Shown here piece by piece: positions 16,188-46,856 of a DNA stretch of 64,000 bases. The stretch covers positions 1,504,141 to 1,568,140 of the forward strand of contig NC_003413.1 in NCBI RefSeq assembly GCF_000007305.1, read 5' to 3'. Within the stretch, counting starts at the first letter, position 1. Every line of letters starts with the position of its first letter. The notes below the pieces were generated by a model. It made no database searches and was not told where the DNA came from. It saw only the letters and a program-made list of their open reading frames with translations. This stretch comes from Pyrococcus furiosus DSM 3638. GTDB taxonomy: Archaea > Methanobacteriota_B > Thermococci > Thermococcales > Thermococcaceae. A program made the position numbers and the translations under genes.

Positions 16188-16256
16188 GCTTATGATGAAC
16201 TTTCCCTACGGCCTGAGCGTCACGCGATGAGGAATACAGCCAGGGCTGATGAAGGT
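16188..16256 (+). ncRNA. C/D box sRNA (2'-O-methylation guide)
   Basis: All four boxes are present with archaeal spacing: C ATGATGA (16192-16198), D' CTGA (16213-16216), C' GCGATGA (16224-16230) and D CTGA (16246-16249). Guides are 14 and 15 bases, and the D'-C' gap is 7. By the fifth-base rule, the D' guide would methylate U in GCCGU and the D guide would methylate G in CCCUG of a complementary target. A TATA box (AATTATATAAT, about 16172-16182) lies just upstream. The D box ends 15 bases before the next gene's ATG. Confidence 0.85.
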
Positions 16257-38753: not shown

Positions 38754-38782
38754 GTACTAAAGAAGTCTAAGTGGTTTTGACC

Positions 38783-38821
38783 ATGCTAGCCTTTGCATAC
38801 CTACACCTTCATCATCATTGA
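38783..38821 (+). CDS. Candidate histidine-operon leader peptide
   Basis: A 12-codon frame reads MLAFAYLHLHHH and then TGA. Four of the last five residues are histidine, as in bacterial his leader peptides, and it lies between the promoter and the first his gene. The bases 38803-38811 (ACACCTTCA), which include the first His codon and the start of the His run, are complementary over nine pairs (one G-U) to 38849-38857 (TGGAGGTGT), the ribosome-binding site of hisZ. A ribosome delayed at the His codons would keep that site open. The peptide and the mechanism are inferred from sequence only. Confidence 0.6.
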   Translation: MLAFAYLHLHHH

Positions 38822-38862
38822 TCTCTATTCTCTCTTCACTTGGTTAGTTGGAGGTGTTTTCT

Positions 38863-39744
38863 ATGTGGGCTAAGAGAAGCATGGAGGAGTATATTAAAAT
38901 TGCTGAAATTGCAAACAAGCTTCGCTCGATTTTTCAACTCTGGGGATATAAAGAAGTGGTATTTCCAATTATCGAGGAATACTCACCTGAAATTAGAAAA
39001 GGAACAAAATTTGCCTATAATAACTTGTTCTATCTAATCTCCCCAGACGTCACATCAAGAATAATAAAACAGTTCAAAGACGGAAATGCAAAGGTATTCT
39101 ACATAGCAGAGGTCCTAAATGGTGATGTTAAGGGAGAATGGCAGGCTGGAATAGAGTTCATTGGAGGAAAAGGTCTGGGAATGTATCTTGAAGCTCTTTC
39201 GATAGCAATAACATCCCTAGAAAGTCTTGGAATTACAGAATTCTACATCGACATTGGAAGCATTGAGGTTTGGAAAGAACTAAGCGGAGAATACTGGCCC
39301 AAAATAAAAGAAGCCCTAATAAAGCGAAACTTTGAGATAATAGAAAATATTCCAATTCCCAAGGACAAAAAAGACAAGATGTGGGAGTTATTTAATTTTA
39401 GGGGAAGAAGAAGTGGAATAGAAAAATTAGACACTATAGTTGATTCCATAGAGGATCCAAGGGTGTTTATAGACCTAGGAACTGTTCGTCCACTTCCCTA
39501 CTATACCGACATAATATTCGAAATATACTCTCCCCAGGTAGGAAAACCAATAGGGGGAGGAGGAGAATATGAGGTTAGAGGAAAGCAGGCGATTGGCTTC
39601 GTTTTCTACTTAAATAGGTTGCTAAGTCTTTACAGACCGAAAGATAGGGCAAGAAAAGTTATTTCTGAAATAGATCCTAAGAAAGCATATTCCACAGCTA
39701 GAGAAATGGTGAGACTAGGAATTCCAGTGGAGGTGAGGTTATGA
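38863..39744 (+). CDS. hisZ: ATP phosphoribosyltransferase regulatory subunit HisZ
   Basis: A 293-residue relative of histidyl-tRNA synthetase that lacks the anticodon-binding domain. HisZ pairs with short-form HisG to make active, histidine-inhibited ATP phosphoribosyltransferase. Class II-type segments are present: [30 protein letters not shown]-like motif 2 and the glycine-rich [12 protein letters not shown] near the C terminus. The adjacent hisG is the short form, which needs HisZ. ATG 38863 follows GGAGGTG by six bases; an in-frame TTG at 38848 lies within the ribosome-binding region. Confidence 0.9.
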
Positions 39745-40355
39745 GGTTTGTTTTACCAAAGGGAAGGCTTTACCAAGATTCGATAAAAGTACTAGAACTC
39801 GCTGGAATAAAAGTTCCAAAGAGAGACGAAAGAGCTCTAATCTGGGGGGATGGAAATAACGAATTCCTTTTAGCTAGAGCGTTTGACGTTCCCGTTTATG
39901 TTGAACATGGAATTGATATAGGAATAGCGGGGAGTGATGTAGTAGAAGAGAGAGGAAGTGACGTGTTTATCCCCCTGGAACTACCTTTCGGAAAATGCAG
40001 GTTAAGTATAGCTGTCCCCAAGGAGAAAGTTGTAGACCCAGAAAATATGGATGGTTACAAGATTGCAACAAAATATCCCAACATAACAAAGAGGTACTTT
40101 GAAAATCTCAATATTGAAGTTGAAGTGATAAAACTCCACGGAAGTATAGAGCTAGCTCCAAGAATAGGAATAGCTGATGCAATAGTTGACATAGTGGAAA
40201 CAGGAAATACATTAAGATCAAATGGACTCGTTGAAGTTGCAAAGATAATGGATGTTTCAGCGCTCCTCTTAGTAAATCGCATTTCTCAAAAGATGTTCTT
40301 TGAAGAAATTAATTCTTTCATAACAAAAATTAGGAGGTCTGTTTATGGACATTGA
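39741..40355 (+). CDS. hisG: ATP phosphoribosyltransferase catalytic subunit, short form
   Basis: This enzyme condenses ATP and PRPP to phosphoribosyl-ATP, the first step of histidine synthesis. The 204-residue length identifies the short form that lacks the C-terminal regulatory domain. Motifs are [20 protein letters not shown], the [14 protein letters not shown] region and the PRPP loop [20 protein letters not shown]. It overlaps hisZ (ATGA) and hisD. Confidence 0.95.
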
Positions 40356-41472
40356 AGAATACGTCAGGGAGATTTTGAAAGATATCCGGGAAAGAGGATT
40401 AGAGGCAATAAGAGAGTACTCAAAAAAATTCGACGGATATGAAGGCCCATTTGAAGTCTCAAAGGAGGAGTTTAAGGAAGCTGAAGAAAGAATTCCAGAA
40501 AGGGATAAAGAAATTATAAAGAGAACTCTCAAGAGAATTGAGAAATACCATAGAAAACAACTAAAGCAGGACATTTTATACATCGAGAATGGCTCTCTCT
40601 ATGGGCTAATATACAAGCCACTCAAGAGAATAGGGATATATGTCCCAGGTGGGAAACCGCTGCCTTCAACTCTAATGATGGTAGGAGTCCCCGCAAGGGT
40701 CGCTGGAGTTAAGGAAATCGTTGTAACAAACCCACCCAAAGATGGGAAAGTAAATCCATACATCCTGTACATAGCAAAACTCCTCAAGATTGAAGAAGTA
40801 TACAAGCTCGGAGGAATTCAGGCAATAGCTGCCATGGCTTATGGTATTGGAATGAAAAAGGTCCAAAAGATCTTTGGGCCTGGGAATAAGTTTGTCAATG
40901 AAGCAAAGAGACAAGTTTTTGGAATTGTCGGGATAGACAGTTTGGCTGGCCCTTCTGAAATAGCAGTAATTGCAGATGAAAGTGCGGATAAAGATTTCGT
41001 TCTTTACGATTTGTTAAGCCAATTAGAACACGGAAAAGATAGCAAGGCATGGTTATTGACGACGTCAAAAGAACTAGCAGATTACTGTAATAGAGAGGGA
41101 ATAACAGTTATCGTGTGTAGCTCTCTTGAGGAATGCTGTAAGAAAGCTAATGAAATAGCTCCAGAACACCTTGAGATAATAACTAGAGAACCCCTAAAAT
41201 TGGTAGACTTAATTGAAAATGCAGGTGCGATATACCTAGGGCTATACACACCAGTTCCTGCAGCTGACTACTTCTTAGGAGTTAATCACGTTCTCCCAAC
41301 GGGAGGTGCGGCAAAATTCATGGGTGTTCTCACAGTTTGGGACTTCATGAAGCCAATAAGCATTGCAATGGTTAGTAGAGAGGAGTTTATCTCTGAAAGA
41401 GAGCTGGGAATAAGATTAGCTGAAATAGAAGGAATAGAACTCCACAAAAAGAGCTTGGAGGTTAGAAAATGA
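40345..41472 (+). CDS. hisD: Histidinol dehydrogenase
   Basis: This zinc enzyme oxidises histidinol to histidine in two NAD-dependent steps, the end of the pathway. The 375 residues include [20 protein letters not shown], the signature [15 protein letters not shown], and the catalytic EQLEHG-like [11 protein letters not shown] and [12 protein letters not shown] segments. It overlaps hisG by 11 bases, with GGAGG before the ATG. A 66-base gap separates its stop from the GTG chosen for hisB. Confidence 0.95.
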
Positions 41473-41538
41473 GAAAGAAGGCTAATCATTGTGAAATCAA
41501 CTGTGTAATTAAAGATACCTTTTATTGGGGTGAAGAAA

Positions 41539-42069
41539 GTGAGGAGAACTACAAAAGAAACGGATATAATTGTAGAAATCGGGAAAAAAGGAGAAATAAA
41601 GACAAATGACTTAATCCTAGATCACATGCTTACTGCCTTTGCATTTTATCTAGGAAAGGACATGAGGATCACGGCAACGTATGACTTGAGGCACCACTTA
41701 TGGGAAGATATTGGAATAACCCTTGGAGAAGCGCTTAGAGAGAATCTTCCAGAAAAGTTCACAAGGTTTGGGAATGCAATAATGCCAATGGACGATGCTC
41801 TTGTCTTAGTTTCAGTGGACATTTCAAATAGACCCTATGCAAATGTGGATGTAAACATAAAAGATGCAGAAGAAGGATTCGCAGTTTCTCTCCTAAAAGA
41901 ATTTGTTTGGGGGCTCGCTCGCGGACTTAGAGCTACGATCCACATAAAACAACTAAGCGGTGAAAATGCCCACCATATAGTAGAGGCCGCATTTAAGGGG
42001 CTTGGAATGGCTCTGAGAGTAGCAACTAAAGAGAGTGAGAGAGTTGAAAGCACAAAGGGGGTATTGTAA
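41539..42069 (+). CDS. hisB: Imidazoleglycerol-phosphate dehydratase
   Basis: This Mn enzyme removes water from imidazoleglycerol phosphate. The 176-residue monofunctional form (no phosphatase domain) has the metal-binding DHMLTAFAFYLG, DLRHHLWEDIGITLGEAL and GENAHHIVEAAFKGLG. GTG 41539 follows GGGGTGA by five bases and gives MRRTTKETDI; a GTG at 41530 lies inside that site. The stop overlaps the hisH start (TAATG). Confidence 0.95.
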   Translation: MRRTTKETDIIVEIGKKGEIKTNDLILDHMLTAFAFYLGKDMRITATYDLRHHLWEDIGITLGEALRENLPEKFTRFGNAIMPMDDALVLVSVDISNRPYANVDVNIKDAEEGFAVSLLKEFVWGLARGLRATIHIKQLSGENAHHIVEAAFKGLGMALRVATKESERVESTKGVL

Positions 42070-42653
42070 TGGATAGAATTGCAATAGTCGACCTAGGAAT
42101 TGGTAATCTAGCAAACGTAAAGAAGGCCCTAAAAGGATATATAACTAGCGATCCTTACGAGATAGAGAAAGCAGACAAAATTGTTCTTCCCGGGGTTGGC
42201 AATTTCGGGGCCGTGGTGGACAAACTCGCCCCAATAAAAGATATAATCATTGAGGGAATAAACGAGGGAAAGCCCTTCCTGGGAATATGTCTTGGAATGC
42301 AACTTCTTTTCGAGGAAAGTGAAGAAAGCCCAGGAAAAGAGGGACTTGGAATATTCAAAGGAAAAGTTGTGAAACTAAAAAATGTAAGAACCCCACATAT
42401 TGGCTGGAACCAGGTGTGGATAAAGAAGGAATGCAAGCTCTTTGAGGGGCTAAAGAATGGCAGCTATTTTTACTTTGTTCACTCCTATCATGCCGTCCCA
42501 CAAGACCCCGATATAATAGCAACAACTACAGACTATGAAAATGCAGAGTTTGTCTCCTCAGTATGCTTTGAAAACATATTTGGCGTCCAGTTCCACCCAG
42601 AAAAGAGTAGCAAAAATGGTCTTATACTCCTAAGAAACTTTAGGAGGTTATAA
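42069..42653 (+). CDS. hisH: Imidazole glycerol phosphate synthase glutaminase subunit
   Basis: This class I glutamine amidotransferase feeds ammonia to HisF. The nucleophile Cys lies in GICLGMQLLFEESEE, and the His-Glu pair in VQFHPEKSS. The oxyanion loop is VLPGVGNFG. At 194 residues it has normal length. It starts on the hisB stop and ends one base before hisA. Confidence 0.95.
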   Translation: MDRIAIVDLGIGNLANVKKALKGYITSDPYEIEKADKIVLPGVGNFGAVVDKLAPIKDIIIEGINEGKPFLGICLGMQLLFEESEESPGKEGLGIFKGKVVKLKNVRTPHIGWNQVWIKKECKLFEGLKNGSYFYFVHSYHAVPQDPDIIATTTDYENAEFVSSVCFENIFGVQFHPEKSSKNGLILLRNFRRL

Positions 42654-42654
42654 A

Positions 42655-43377
42655 ATGAAGTTTAGAATTTACCCAGCCATTGATATAATGGATGGAAAAG
42701 TAGTAAGGTTGTATAAAGGAAAGAAGGACGAAGTAAAGGTGTATGGAGATCCACTGAAGTTTGCAGAGAAATTTTCAGAATACGTGGATAAAATCCACAT
42801 AGTGGATCTGGATGGGGCATTCTCCGGCAAACCCCAAAATCTTGACATTGTAGAGAAGATAATTAGAGATGTTGGAGTAAGAGTGCAGATAGGGGGAGGA
42901 TTTAGAGATTATGAGTCGATCAAGAAGGCGTACGACATAGGAGTTGAGAATGTAATTATAGGAACAAAAGCCCTTGATATCTCTTTTTTGGAAAGAATAA
43001 CCTCAGAATTCGAGGGAATAACAGTCAGCTTGGACTCCAAAGGGGGAAAGATTTTCACCAAAGGTTGGATAGAGGAAGAGAGCCTTCTTGTAGAGGATGC
43101 ATACAAAATGCTCCGAAAATTCGTTAATAGGTTTGTATACACAGTCATAGATAGAGACGGTACCCTCCTGGGAATAGAGAAAATCAAAAGGTTCTGGGGA
43201 GATGAAGAATTTATTTATGCAGGAGGAGTGGCAACACCTACCGATATAATTCAGCTGGCTGAAATAGGGTTTTCTGGCGTTATTATTGGGAAGGCTTTGT
43301 ATGAAGGAACTATCTCTCTTGAAGAAGCTTTGGAGGTTGCTAAAAGTGTTGGCAAGAAGAATTATAGCAGCTCTTGA
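42655..43377 (+). CDS. hisA: ProFAR isomerase
   Basis: HisA is an (beta-alpha)8-barrel isomerase that opens the ribose of ProFAR by an Amadori rearrangement. The first catalytic Asp lies in [13 protein letters not shown], and the second in [12 protein letters not shown]. Phosphate sites [11 protein letters not shown] and AGGVATPTD are present. The 240-residue frame overlaps hisF by 32 bases. Confidence 0.94.
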
Positions 43378-44101
43378 CATAAAAGATGGTAGGGTTGTTA
43401 AAGGAATAAAATTCAAGAACATTAGAGATGCTGGAGATCCAATAGAACTAGCTAAAAGGTATGAGAGCGAAGGAATTGACGAGATAGTCTTTCTAGATAT
43501 TACTGCCTCCTACGAAAAAAGGAAAATCCTTCTCGACTTGGTAGAAAGAGTAGCAGAGGAAATCTACGTTCCTTTTACGGTGGGAGGAGGTATAAGAACA
43601 GTTGAAGAGGCAAGAGAAATAATTAGACGAGGGGCCGACAAGATATTTATCAATACAGCCGCCGTGGAAAATCCCTCCTTAATTAAAGAGATCGCTGACC
43701 TCATAGGCTCAGCAAACTTAGTTGTTGCTATAGATGCCAAGTGGAACGGAAAATTCTGGGAAGTTTATACACACGGGGGAAGAAAGCCCAGGGGAATGGA
43801 CGCTGTTGAGTGGGCCAAAAGAGTAGAAGAACTGGGAGCAGGTGAAATTCTCCTCACGAGCATGGACACCGATGGAACAAAGCAGGGATTTGACATTCCA
43901 CTAACAAAAGCAGTTGTTGATGCCGTAAATATTCCCGTTATAGCCTCTGGAGGGGCTGGAAAACCAGAACACTTTTTAGAAGTATTTAGGATAGGTTCTG
44001 ATGCTGCATTAGCGGCATCAATTTTCCACTATGGTGAATATACGGTAAGGGAACTGAAGATGTTTCTTGCCAAAAATGGAATTCCAGTTAGACTTGATTA
44101 G
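43346..44101 (+). CDS. hisF: Imidazole glycerol phosphate synthase cyclase subunit
   Basis: This barrel partner of HisH converts PRFAR and ammonia to imidazoleglycerol phosphate and [20 protein letters not shown] carries the first catalytic Asp, and [13 protein letters not shown] the second; [12 protein letters not shown] and [12 protein letters not shown] bind phosphates. I choose GTG 43346 ([15 protein letters not shown], 251 residues) after GGAGG; the longer frame from 43286 would add 20 residues inside hisA. Confidence 0.95.
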
Positions 44102-44111
44102 AGGTGAGCAT

Positions 44112-44741
44112 ATGGAAATTGAAAAGTTATTGGAGCAAGTAAACTGGGAAAAGAACAATGGGATTGTCCCCGTCATAGTTCAGGATGAAAAAGGAGAAGT
44201 TCTTACACTTGCATATATGAACAAAGAAGCCCTTAGAAAAACTCTTGAAACGGGAATTGCCCACTACTACTCACGTTCCAAGGGTAGAATTAGAATGAAA
44301 GGAGAAGTTAGTGGGAATATACAGACAGTTAAAGAGATAAAAATTGATTGTGACAATGACGCCCTCTTGCTAATAGTTTCTCCAAAAGGACCTGCCTGTC
44401 ACACTGGAAACTATTCATGCTTTTATAGAAAGCTTGGAGAACCAGAGAGAGTGCTCCCAATAGATTATTCTCTTTCAATTCTAAAGGAGCTCGAAGAGAT
44501 AATAAAAAGAAGGAAAGAAACCCCCGTTGAAGGTTCATATACGTCCAAACTTTTTAAGGAAGGGAGAGAAAAGATCTACAAAAAATTTGGAGAAGAAGCT
44601 ATAGAAGTCCTCGTTGCTGAGAAAAGGGAAAGGATAATCTACGAAGTTGCAGACTTATTATATCACCTTCTAGTGCTCCTTACATATAATGACATTTCTC
44701 TAGGAGAGGTTATGAACGAGTTAAGGAGGCGGAGAAAGTGA
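44112..44741 (+). CDS. hisIE: Phosphoribosyl-AMP cyclohydrolase / phosphoribosyl-ATP pyrophosphatase
   Basis: A bifunctional fusion for steps two and three of the pathway. The N-terminal HisI domain (1-115) has ARxYSRSK-like AHYYSRSKGRIRMKGEVSGN, with metal ligands DCDNDA and CHTGNYSCFY. The C-terminal HisE domain (about 120-209) is helical with SYTSKLFKEGREKIYKKFGE and the EE...E..D pyrophosphatase pattern. ATG 44112 follows GAGGTGA. Confidence 0.95.
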   Translation: MEIEKLLEQVNWEKNNGIVPVIVQDEKGEVLTLAYMNKEALRKTLETGIAHYYSRSKGRIRMKGEVSGNIQTVKEIKIDCDNDALLLIVSPKGPACHTGNYSCFYRKLGEPERVLPIDYSLSILKELEEIIKRRKETPVEGSYTSKLFKEGREKIYKKFGEEAIEVLVAEKRERIIYEVADLLYHLLVLLTYNDISLGEVMNELRRRRK

Positions 44742-45754
44742 TCTGGGAAGAAATTCTAAACTTCGAGCCCTATAGAGCCGTAGAAGGAAACTACAGAATA
44801 TGGCTTGATAAAAATGAAAGTCCCTATGACCTCCCTCCCCAACTTAAAGAGGAGATATTAGAAGAACTCAAGAGAATAGAGTTTAATAGATATCCTCACA
44901 TAACCTCAGACCCTCTAAGAGAGGCCCTCGCAGAATTCTACGGACTAAAAAAAGAAAACATAGCCGTTGGGAATGGTAGTGACGAACTAATAAATTATCT
45001 TGTGAAGATGTTCAAGGGAAAGTACATAGTCGTTACCTCCCCCACTTTTGGCATGTATTCATTTTTTGCGAAGCTTCATGGAATTCCAGTGAAAGACATT
45101 CCCCTAAAGGAGGACTTCACAATTGATGGAGAGAGAATTGCAGAAGAAGGAAAAGCAGCATCAGCAATTTTCATAGCCTCACCAAACAACCCTACGGGAA
45201 ACTCTCAACCAGAAAATGAAGTCCTCAAAGTTCTAGACTCTGGGAGAGTAGTTATACTTGATGAAGCCTATTCTGAGTTTTCGGGAAAAAGCTTCATACC
45301 AAAAATCAGTGAGTATGAAAATTTAGTAATTCTAAGGACGTTTTCAAAGGCGTTTGGACTTGCTGGAATTAGATGTGGATATATGATAGCAAATGAAAAG
45401 ATTATAGATGCTTTATACAGAATACTCCCTCCATACAATCTTAATTCCTTGACAATGACAGTGGCTATAAAGATGTTAGAACACTATGATATTGTCAAGA
45501 GAAGAATTAAACTTATTGTAAAGGAACGAGAAAGAATTAGAAGAGAATTTATAGAATACTCCTATCCGAGTGAAGCTAACTTTCTTCTTATGAAGCTCGA
45601 TGCATACGATTATCTTCTAAAGAAGGGGATTGTCGTGAGAAAGTTATCTGGAAGGCTAGAGGGTCACATTAGGGTAACAATAGGAAAAAAATGGGAAAAT
45701 GATGAGCTGATTAAAGCCCTAAAAGAATTCCTGGAGGAGTGCAGATGTGGATAG
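44738..45754 (+). CDS. hisC: Histidinol-phosphate aminotransferase
   Basis: This PLP-dependent class I/II aminotransferase converts imidazoleacetol phosphate to histidinol phosphate. Motifs are DKNESPYDLP, the cofactor loop GNGSDELI, the ASPNNPTGN loop, DEAYSEFSG and the Schiff-base lysine in RTFSKAFGLAGIRCGY. The 338 residues start at GTG 44738, overlapping the hisIE stop. Confidence 0.95.
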   Translation: MIWEEILNFEPYRAVEGNYRIWLDKNESPYDLPPQLKEEILEELKRIEFNRYPHITSDPLREALAEFYGLKKENIAVGNGSDELINYLVKMFKGKYIVVTSPTFGMYSFFAKLHGIPVKDIPLKEDFTIDGERIAEEGKAASAIFIASPNNPTGNSQPENEVLKVLDSGRVVILDEAYSEFSGKSFIPKISEYENLVILRTFSKAFGLAGIRCGYMIANEKIIDALYRILPPYNLNSLTMTVAIKMLEHYDIVKRRIKLIVKERERIRREFIEYSYPSEANFLLMKLDAYDYLLKKGIVVRKLSGRLEGHIRVTIGKKWENDELIKALKEFLEECRCG

Positions 45755-46461
45755 TCTTTGATGTAGATGGTGTACTCATAGACACTAGCGAGAGTTATGA
45801 TATGGCAACAAAGCTCACAGTAGAGTACTTTCTTTCCCACCTGGGAATTAAGAAGGAAGTTTCTTTAGAGATAATAAGGGACATGAGAAAGAAAGGAGTA
45901 TTTTCGGATGATTTTGAACTCAGTGAAGCATTAATTTTAATGTATCTTTCAGGAGAAGACCTTCCAAAAGGAGAAGGAGTTGAATATTTAAGGCAGAAGT
46001 TAGGAATTGTACTAGATAGAAAAGACATCGAAAGGGTGTTTAATACGTTTTATCTTGGCGAAATATATCCTAACAGCATTTTCAAGTTTGAAGGACTTTG
46101 GAGAAAAGAGAAGAGAATTGTTGATATCGAATTATTAAAGAAGGCAAAAGAAACTTATAAGCTGGGGATAGTTACTGGAAGAGATTCCCTAGAGATGAAG
46201 CTTGCAGAGGAAATTATCCGCTTTAAATTCGACAAAGTTGTTACAAGAGATATGTTTGAAAAACCTGACCCCCGGGCCTTATATGAAGTTACACAAGGGG
46301 AGGAAGCCATCTACATAGGAGACAGCAAAGTTGATGAAGAGCTGGTCGAGAGGTATAGGAGAACATTCAAAGGCAACGTTACCTACCTCATGGTCGGGAG
46401 AGATGTCAATGATGTCAACGAAGCATTGAAAAAGATACTTTTCCAATCATATATAAGGTGA
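45745..46461 (+). CDS. HAD-family phosphatase, probable histidinol-phosphatase
   Basis: A 238-residue HAD hydrolase with the nucleophile motif FDVDGVLIDTS, motif II GIVTGRDS, a lysine in FEKPDPRAL and motif IV YIGDSKVDEEL. Histidinol-phosphate phosphatase is the only step not otherwise encoded in this operon. As I recall, a HAD-type histidinol phosphatase has been described in Thermococcus. Position therefore argues that this enzyme supplies that step. ATG 45745 follows GGAGGAG and lies inside the end of hisC. Confidence 0.82.
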   Translation: MWIVFDVDGVLIDTSESYDMATKLTVEYFLSHLGIKKEVSLEIIRDMRKKGVFSDDFELSEALILMYLSGEDLPKGEGVEYLRQKLGIVLDRKDIERVFNTFYLGEIYPNSIFKFEGLWRKEKRIVDIELLKKAKETYKLGIVTGRDSLEMKLAEEIIRFKFDKVVTRDMFEKPDPRALYEVTQGEEAIYIGDSKVDEELVERYRRTFKGNVTYLMVGRDVNDVNEALKKILFQSYIR

Positions 46462-46795: not shown

Positions 46796-46856
46796 AGATC
46801 AGCACTTAAGATCCTCATCATCCCTTCAGAGCTGCGCGGGTTCATCATCTTTACCA
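46795..46856 (-). ncRNA. C/D box sRNA (2'-O-methylation guide)
   Basis: The minus strand has a textbook arrangement: C ATGATGA (46848-46842), 12-base guide, D' CTGA (46829-46826), 4-base gap, C' ATGATGA (46821-46815), 12-base guide, D CTGA (46802-46799). Flanks GGTA and TACC can close a terminal stem. The fifth-base rule predicts methylation of G in AGCUG (D' guide) and U in CACUU (D guide) of the targets. A TATA box 20-30 bases upstream (46872-46882) is shared with the divergent gene at 46910. The 3' flank touches the stop codon of the convergent tRNA-binding gene. Confidence 0.9.

Follow-up and report, generated by a model that had tools for sequence, protein, structure and literature searches.

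A conserved histidine-run leader frame precedes hisZ in Pyrococcus furiosus and its relatives and may serve attenuation of the his operon

Results

The his operon and its upstream region

The window analyzed here, a stretch of 64,000 nucleotides from Pyrococcus furiosus DSM 3638, contains a complete his operon at 38863–46461, comprising hisZ, hisG, hisD, hisB, hisH, hisA, hisF, hisIE and hisC together with a HAD-type hydrolase (Table 1). The initial annotation had placed this operon directly 3' of a 12-codon frame in which four of the last five sense codons specify His, with no run of five T ahead of hisZ. Translation of 38783–38821 confirms the frame, the genes from hisZ through hisC and the hydrolase follow it, and no T5 run lies between leader and hisZ in the window.

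The TATA-like element listed in Table 1 was picked by eye, and a promoter scan ranked the overlapping ATTAAATT at about 38739 above it. Judged from the position of the TATA-like element, transcription probably starts near 38768–38775, some 10 bases 5' of the leader ATG. In 43 of the 48 loci of the comparison set described below, the best TATA-like score upstream of the leader exceeds that between leader and hisZ, the two stretches being unequal in length. hisZ itself is poor in histidine, with none among its 293 residues in the window and 13 over the 48 hisZ frames, one of which is partial, and its start codon is GTG or TTG in 41 of 48 loci; both traits suit a gene that is needed during histidine shortage. 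At the gathering score, Rfam gave six matches in the window and none at the leader, whether to a riboswitch, a T-box or a known leader. C/D box RNA matches were seen at 46796–46852 (snoPyro_CD, minus strand), just past a 109-aa frame behind the his operon and on the opposite strand, and at 16188–16251 (sR19, plus strand).

Table 1. Features of the hisZ upstream region and the his operon, in window coordinates.
Feature	Position	Strand	Remark
TATA-like element TTTATTAA	38745..38752	+	Picked by eye
Leader ORF MLAFAYLHLHHH, stop codon TGA	38783..38821	+	Translation; same kind in 48 of 48 loci
Predicted 5' helix arm inside the leader ORF, including anti-SD ACACCTTCA at 38803–38811	38787..38811	+	
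Putative regulatory His codon stretch	38804..38818	+	CAC at 38804; CAT at 38810, 38813 and 38816
CTNTTCT element (CTATTCT in the window)	38825..38831	+	TTCT at 38828–38831
Predicted 3' helix arm: hisZ ribosome-binding site, start codon and first codons	38849..38872	+	
hisZ Shine-Dalgarno sequence GGAGGTG	38850..38856	+	Sequence
hisZ, ATP phosphoribosyltransferase regulatory subunit	38863..39744	+	293 aa; TIGR00443, E 2.8e-33, below its curated cut-off
hisG	39741..40355	+	TIGR00070
hisD, hisB, hisH, hisA, hisF, hisIE, hisC and HAD-type hydrolase	40345..46461	+	

Conservation of the leader frame

Within the window, an ATG frame of 8–45 codons that ends in His-His and lies within 220 bases 5' of a gene stands before one of the 62 ORFs of at least 150 aa, that one being hisZ, and arises in 0.5% of shuffles of the region. 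Among 94 genomes from the order of a Thermococcus relative, hisZ is present at full length in 46 and in part in one; all 47 were joined with the window to give 48 loci. In all 48 a short frame that begins with ATG and ends in a His run lies ahead of hisZ, against 0.32 expected from shuffles, in which 0.67% of upstream regions hold such a frame. The check that the initial annotation had suggested, a short His-ended frame kept in relatives while its other codons drift, is therefore borne out.

The leaders are 12–40 codons long and end 24–80 nt before hisZ, with TGA as the stop codon in 47 of 48. The run holds three His in 24 loci, two in 23 and four in one, and typical ends read VSYCHHH, VSYRHH, VSYYHHH, SHCHHHLF, DSLHHPF and VDYCHHRLF, with LHLHHH in the window. 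A leader ribosome-binding site of −6 kcal/mol or better occurs in 44 of 48 loci compared with 24% of 301 background ATGs, a comparison that takes the best ATG of each leader and so somewhat favors the leaders; in the window the site has −3.7 kcal/mol and belongs to the four weak cases.

The body of the peptide, judged by its pattern of substitution, is no protein under selection. Over 24 close pairs, some sharing a species, changes in the N-terminal part of the leader sum to 57, 65 and 63 at the three codon positions, and codons that change the amino acid are at least as many as silent ones in 22 of the 23 pairs that differ. Such even drift is expected of a leader whose sole duty lies in its regulatory codons, and the two His are the only residues constant in all leaders. 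The conserved His-run leader, present at 48 of 48 loci, is as a feature of these sequences close to certain, and it is very likely to be regulatory. A degenerate leader pattern gave 33 hits in 29 of the 94 genomes, 23 of them at hisZ leaders; the 10 elsewhere we read as chance, a reversed control pattern giving six.

Every one of the 48 loci retains the first two His codons, and in the His runs of the leaders CAT outnumbers CAC by 118 to four. The corresponding counts for hisZ are two CAT and 11 CAC, and for the operon genes of the window eight CAT and 23 CAC.

An invariant TTCT behind the His codons

Three to 12 nt past the second His codon, and always in the leader frame, all 48 loci carry TTCT. 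The base three positions before it is C in 47 of 48 and the base two positions before it is T in 43 of 48, which yields the element CTNTTCT. In 36 of 48 loci TTCT lies behind the leader stop codon, so it cannot be kept for the sake of the peptide. In L017–L019, L031, L041 and the window, the extra bases between stop and CTNTTCT amount to exactly one codon (CGG, CAA, AGG or TCT), so that the element stays in frame behind the stop; in L020 the leader stop is lost and the frame reads into it.

The attenuation model proposed below does not account for the invariant TTCT. As an anti-SD strand CTNTTCT did not hold up: p was 0.1 or lower against permuted 10-mers in 21 of 48 loci, with a median of 0.16 and the good cases clustered in a few clades. 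Nor was a common partner over the loci found when its pairing with the upstream strand was considered. Elsewhere in the region, as read from the alignment, 11 of the 28 loci of the main group (L021–L055) have a stretch TTYT-N5-AAAA (e.g., ATTTTCATCGAAAAG) shortly 5' of the hisZ ribosome-binding site, which could be an operator or a weak hairpin.

A predicted helix that buries the hisZ start

The pairing reported in the initial annotation, ACACCTTCA at 38803–38811 with TGGAGGTGT at 38849–38857, is indeed present, with nine pairs, one of them G-U, and a loop of 37 bases. On its own this run is unremarkable, being reached by 16% of 2000 leader shuffles and found in four of 62 upstream regions of window ORFs of at least 150 aa. 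The predicted helix is, however, longer than first noted and has 20 pairs in three segments: 38787–38792 with 38867–38872 (six pairs), 38795–38799 with 38862–38866 (five pairs, including the hisZ AUG) and the nine pairs above. Leader codons 2–10 would thereby be tied to the ribosome-binding site, AUG and first codons of hisZ. The fold of 38773–38885 has −34.4 kcal/mol, with z −3.0 against 300 shuffles and a fraction of 0.007 as stable; for 38771–38880, z is −2.06 and eight of 200 shuffles are equally stable. Sequestration of the hisZ ribosome-binding site in this sequence is well supported by these calculated folds.

We then modeled a ribosome parked on any of the His codons or on the stop, with a chosen footprint of 30 bases (−16 to +14 from the A-site). 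The anti-SD strand lies under the ribosome at every His codon, so that the layout fits translational attenuation. The calculated openness of the hisZ SD, in a model that omits the salt, crowding and RNA-binding proteins of a hyperthermophile, rises at 37 °C from 0.00 to 0.27–0.47 with the parked ribosome, at 75 °C from 0.05 to 0.44–0.53 and at 85 °C from 0.27 to 0.56–0.61. At 95 °C the calculated values, 0.60 without and 0.63–0.65 with the ribosome, no longer discriminate. By a coarser measure, with 90 bases taken in before the His run, accessibility goes from 0.25 to 0.39 at 37 °C, with 17% of 18 control placements as good, and from 0.27 to 0.50 at 60 °C, with none of the 18 as good.

Pairing and stall effect in relatives

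The initial annotation had suggested testing whether the complementarity persists in relatives; as such it is not conserved. Duplexes between leader end and start region average −13.49 kcal/mol for a locus's own partners and −13.43 kcal/mol for swapped ones over the 48 loci, with p 0.71 in a clade-level permutation, and so give no sign of co-evolution in a test that is blunted by how little the SD sequences vary between loci. Just seven of the 48 loci have a leader end that does better than shuffles at 5%. The window is not among them, scoring 0.24 with a segment that cuts its 5' arm. The leader end as an order-wide anti-SD is accordingly not borne out by shuffles and swaps.

With a parked ribosome, accessibility rose above the control mean at 37 °C in 35 of 48 loci (p 0.0013) and at 60 °C in 26 of 48 (p 0.09, not significant), the loci being related in both counts. 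With 23 clades defined by eye on leader similarity, 17 of 22 clades show a stall effect larger than the control (Wilcoxon p 0.008), the window having no room for control blocks and so falling outside this paired test; the effects are mostly small. Averaged over the 23 clades the gain is 0.04, a large part of it due to the window, and gains of at least 0.15 occur only in the window (0.40), L025 (0.36) and L023 (0.21). Duplexes of −17.7 kcal/mol or stronger that include the SD, and often the start codon, are found in L015, L016, L023, L025, L029, L032, L033, L035–L040, L042, L043 and L048, the window duplex having −17.1 kcal/mol, yet in L033 and L038 accessibility falls by 0.10 with the parked ribosome despite these strong duplexes. 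The suggestion of translational attenuation made in the initial annotation thus stands in part: sequestration in the window and its calculated opening up to 85 °C speak for it, whereas sequestration is not conserved across the order. Neither CTNTTCT nor the second lineage described below could be seen from the single sequence on which that annotation was based. Of the models considered, translational sequestration fits this species best; for the order as a whole it is unproven.

A second lineage, trp operons and other phyla

A search for hisG in 115 genomes of the phylum led to a second lineage, in which a similar His leader precedes hisG in all six genomes with the main hisG type (G100, G102, G103, G105, G106, G108). 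These leaders end in SCTAHHH, SCAAHHH, VSSIAHHH, SCTAHHQ or SCTSYHHN, 26–28 nt before hisG, and their His run has no TTCT behind it. In six of six an inverted repeat, CGYC-loop-GGCG, begins three bases past the stop and abuts the GGAGG of hisG, and in four of six it is part of the minimum-free-energy fold; a ribosome standing at the His codons would sit over the 5' arm of this repeat. Genomes of this lineage hold two kinds of hisG (L086–L092 and L117–L124), and the His peptide is found at the first kind alone; at the other no His-run leader was seen in eight loci (L117–L124), L119 offering just 110 upstream bases. This reading covers intact genes, the broken hisG remnants of G099 and G104 being left out.

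Within the order, trpE occurs in 15 of 94 genomes, and 13 trp loci were read, G053 (split trpE) and G090 (neither trpC nor trpD in place) being set aside. No Trp-run leader was found in any of the 13; 11 contain short frames in which one or two Trp are scattered, and no such frame is common to several loci. The heptamer TGTCCAA, found close to the start of trpC in 11 of the 13 (among L072–L083 and L085), may serve a Trp-responsive regulator as its operator.

In two other phyla hisG is present in 289 of 592 genomes. Among 60 hisG loci in the matches listed, six have a His-His-ended frame, two of which were called intergenic, and no convincing case emerged; the test is a weak one, hisG often lying inside operons. 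Of the two intergenic calls, that at L146 is in fact in a coding region, and L184 has a possible His leader at no more than the level of chance. No His leader was seen by eye at two distant hisZ- or HisRS-like loci (L002, L003).

Discussion

The combination of a conserved His run, a peptide body free to drift and a predicted helix over the hisZ start enables us to propose a model in which the short frame is a leader peptide that gauges charged tRNA-His. When histidine is scarce, a ribosome would stall on the His run and cover roughly 38788–38830, keeping the leader strand off the ribosome-binding site and start codon of hisZ, so that hisZ and the later genes are translated. Conversely, with ample histidine the ribosome would finish at the TGA and leave, the leader strand would fold onto the hisZ start and the operon would be expressed at a low level. 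The analysis shows the leader, its conservation throughout the order, the predicted helix in this sequence and the calculated effect of a parked ribosome. Transcription and translation of the leader, stalling at its His codons, a response of the operon to histidine and control at the level of translation are inferences. We consider it very probable that the leader lets the ribosome sense a shortage of histidine and turn the pathway on, and probable that the output in this species is translational. The helix is weak in many relatives, and the same sensor may therefore act through another output there.

One such output, which we regard as unlikely but as the most serious competitor, is transcriptional: the position of the leader ribosome would decide whether a Rho-like factor terminates transcription before hisZ, with TTCT as a signal for pausing, cleavage or loading. 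FttA/aCPSF1 is a Rho-like factor that acts on untranslated RNA, and polarity has reportedly been observed in Thermococcus kodakarensis. The invariance of TTCT just past the His codons at all 48 loci, the lack of order-wide sequestration and gaps of up to 80 nt between stop and hisZ, which leave untranslated RNA, all agree with such a mechanism. On the other hand, there is no conserved U-tract, T5 occurring between leader and hisZ in nine of 48 loci and not in the window, and a distance of 24 nt from leader end to hisZ, as in three loci, leaves little space for termination.

The leader could also be an arrest peptide, whose end (V-S-Y-C/R/Y-H-H-H in many loci) would sense free histidine or another metabolite in the exit tunnel and stall the ribosome at the TGA. 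In the larger group of loci VS, often followed by Y, stands ahead of the His run; this and the use of TGA in 47 of 48 would be accounted for in this way. Nevertheless, the residues before the run vary by clade (SHC, SPC, DSL, VTYC, and LHL in the window), only the His pair is universal, and a small RNA hairpin explains part of what is kept there, all of which makes an arrest peptide improbable.

That hairpin, GGTGAGC-loop-GC-CATC, together with CTNTTCT might alternatively form a protein-bound RNA or DNA element to which the His codons are incidental. The retention of TTCT behind the stop in 36 of 48 loci would be consistent with this, as would some compensating changes in the hairpin, whose pair −7/−2 is C-G in 25 loci, T-G in eight, T-A in five, another standard pair in two and non-standard in eight (n = 48). 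However, the hairpin was not seen by eye in the window, L010 and L011, which keep the His run; an ATG opens the frame in every locus, with a ribosome-binding site in 44 of 48; and the second lineage has the His run with no TTCT after it. We judge this reading very improbable, more so than an arrest peptide. Finally, chance, in the form of a short frame without function that happens to hold some His codons, of the sort that arises in 0.67% of shuffled upstream regions, is refuted by the comparison of 48 loci and carries a negligible probability.

Returning to ribosome-mediated attenuation, we lean, by a modest balance of probability, toward the broader proposal that an archaeal order and a second lineage of its phylum control histidine synthesis by a leader of this kind, with CTNTTCT coupling the ribosome to an undescribed type of output, translational here and possibly termination elsewhere. 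If this is true, ribosome position can be coupled to gene output even where the heat leaves RNA hairpins on their own scarcely stable. The leader is present in all 47 hisZ-bearing genomes with only two His constant, and the question of attenuation in archaea thus becomes directly testable; some species of the order are genetically tractable.

Leader-peptide control is known in bacteria and, as far as our searches show, has not been established for archaea: no description of a His leader or a leader-peptide attenuator in archaea was found in the literature searched, in which subscription papers were largely outside coverage. A T. kodakarensis transcriptome study states that direct in vivo evidence had been lacking in archaea for any attenuator or riboswitch; his goes unmentioned in its section on long 5' UTRs, and "histidine" is absent from its main text (PMC4247193). 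Against novelty, the introduction of the uORF4u paper states that leader peptides regulate by attenuation in archaea too and cites two papers (PMC10219788). The trp operons of the order also serve amino-acid biosynthesis in the same archaea, but none of the 13 loci read has a Trp-run leader.

Leader-peptide attenuation is a textbook bacterial mechanism; in the enteric hisL attenuator the output comes from an intrinsic terminator, which has a U-tract and competes with an antiterminator. As in hisL, a short leader with a His run lies directly before a complete his operon, and ribosome position would sense charged tRNA-His; codons for the end product stand in a leader upstream of the first gene at 48 of 48 loci. 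Unlike hisL, no terminator hairpin with a U-tract was found before the first gene (T5 absent from the window and present in nine of 48 loci), the predicted helix buries a ribosome-binding site, and the two to four His codons lie at the C-terminus or close to it. One further source mentions his operon attenuation (PMC10138114). Closer to the output predicted here is the LEU element of Actinobacteria, in which leader Leu codons pair with the SD box of leuA; that element is bacterial, uses Leu and contains a conserved pseudoknot (PMC1262725), whereas here the codons are His, the pairing lies next to them, and it is strong in no more than the window and some clades. Translational attenuation of the ermC type likewise has a stalled leader ribosome that frees a sequestered ribosome-binding site, as our model does; stalling there depends on a macrolide (PMC5118997), whereas here it would presumably follow from a lack of charged tRNA.
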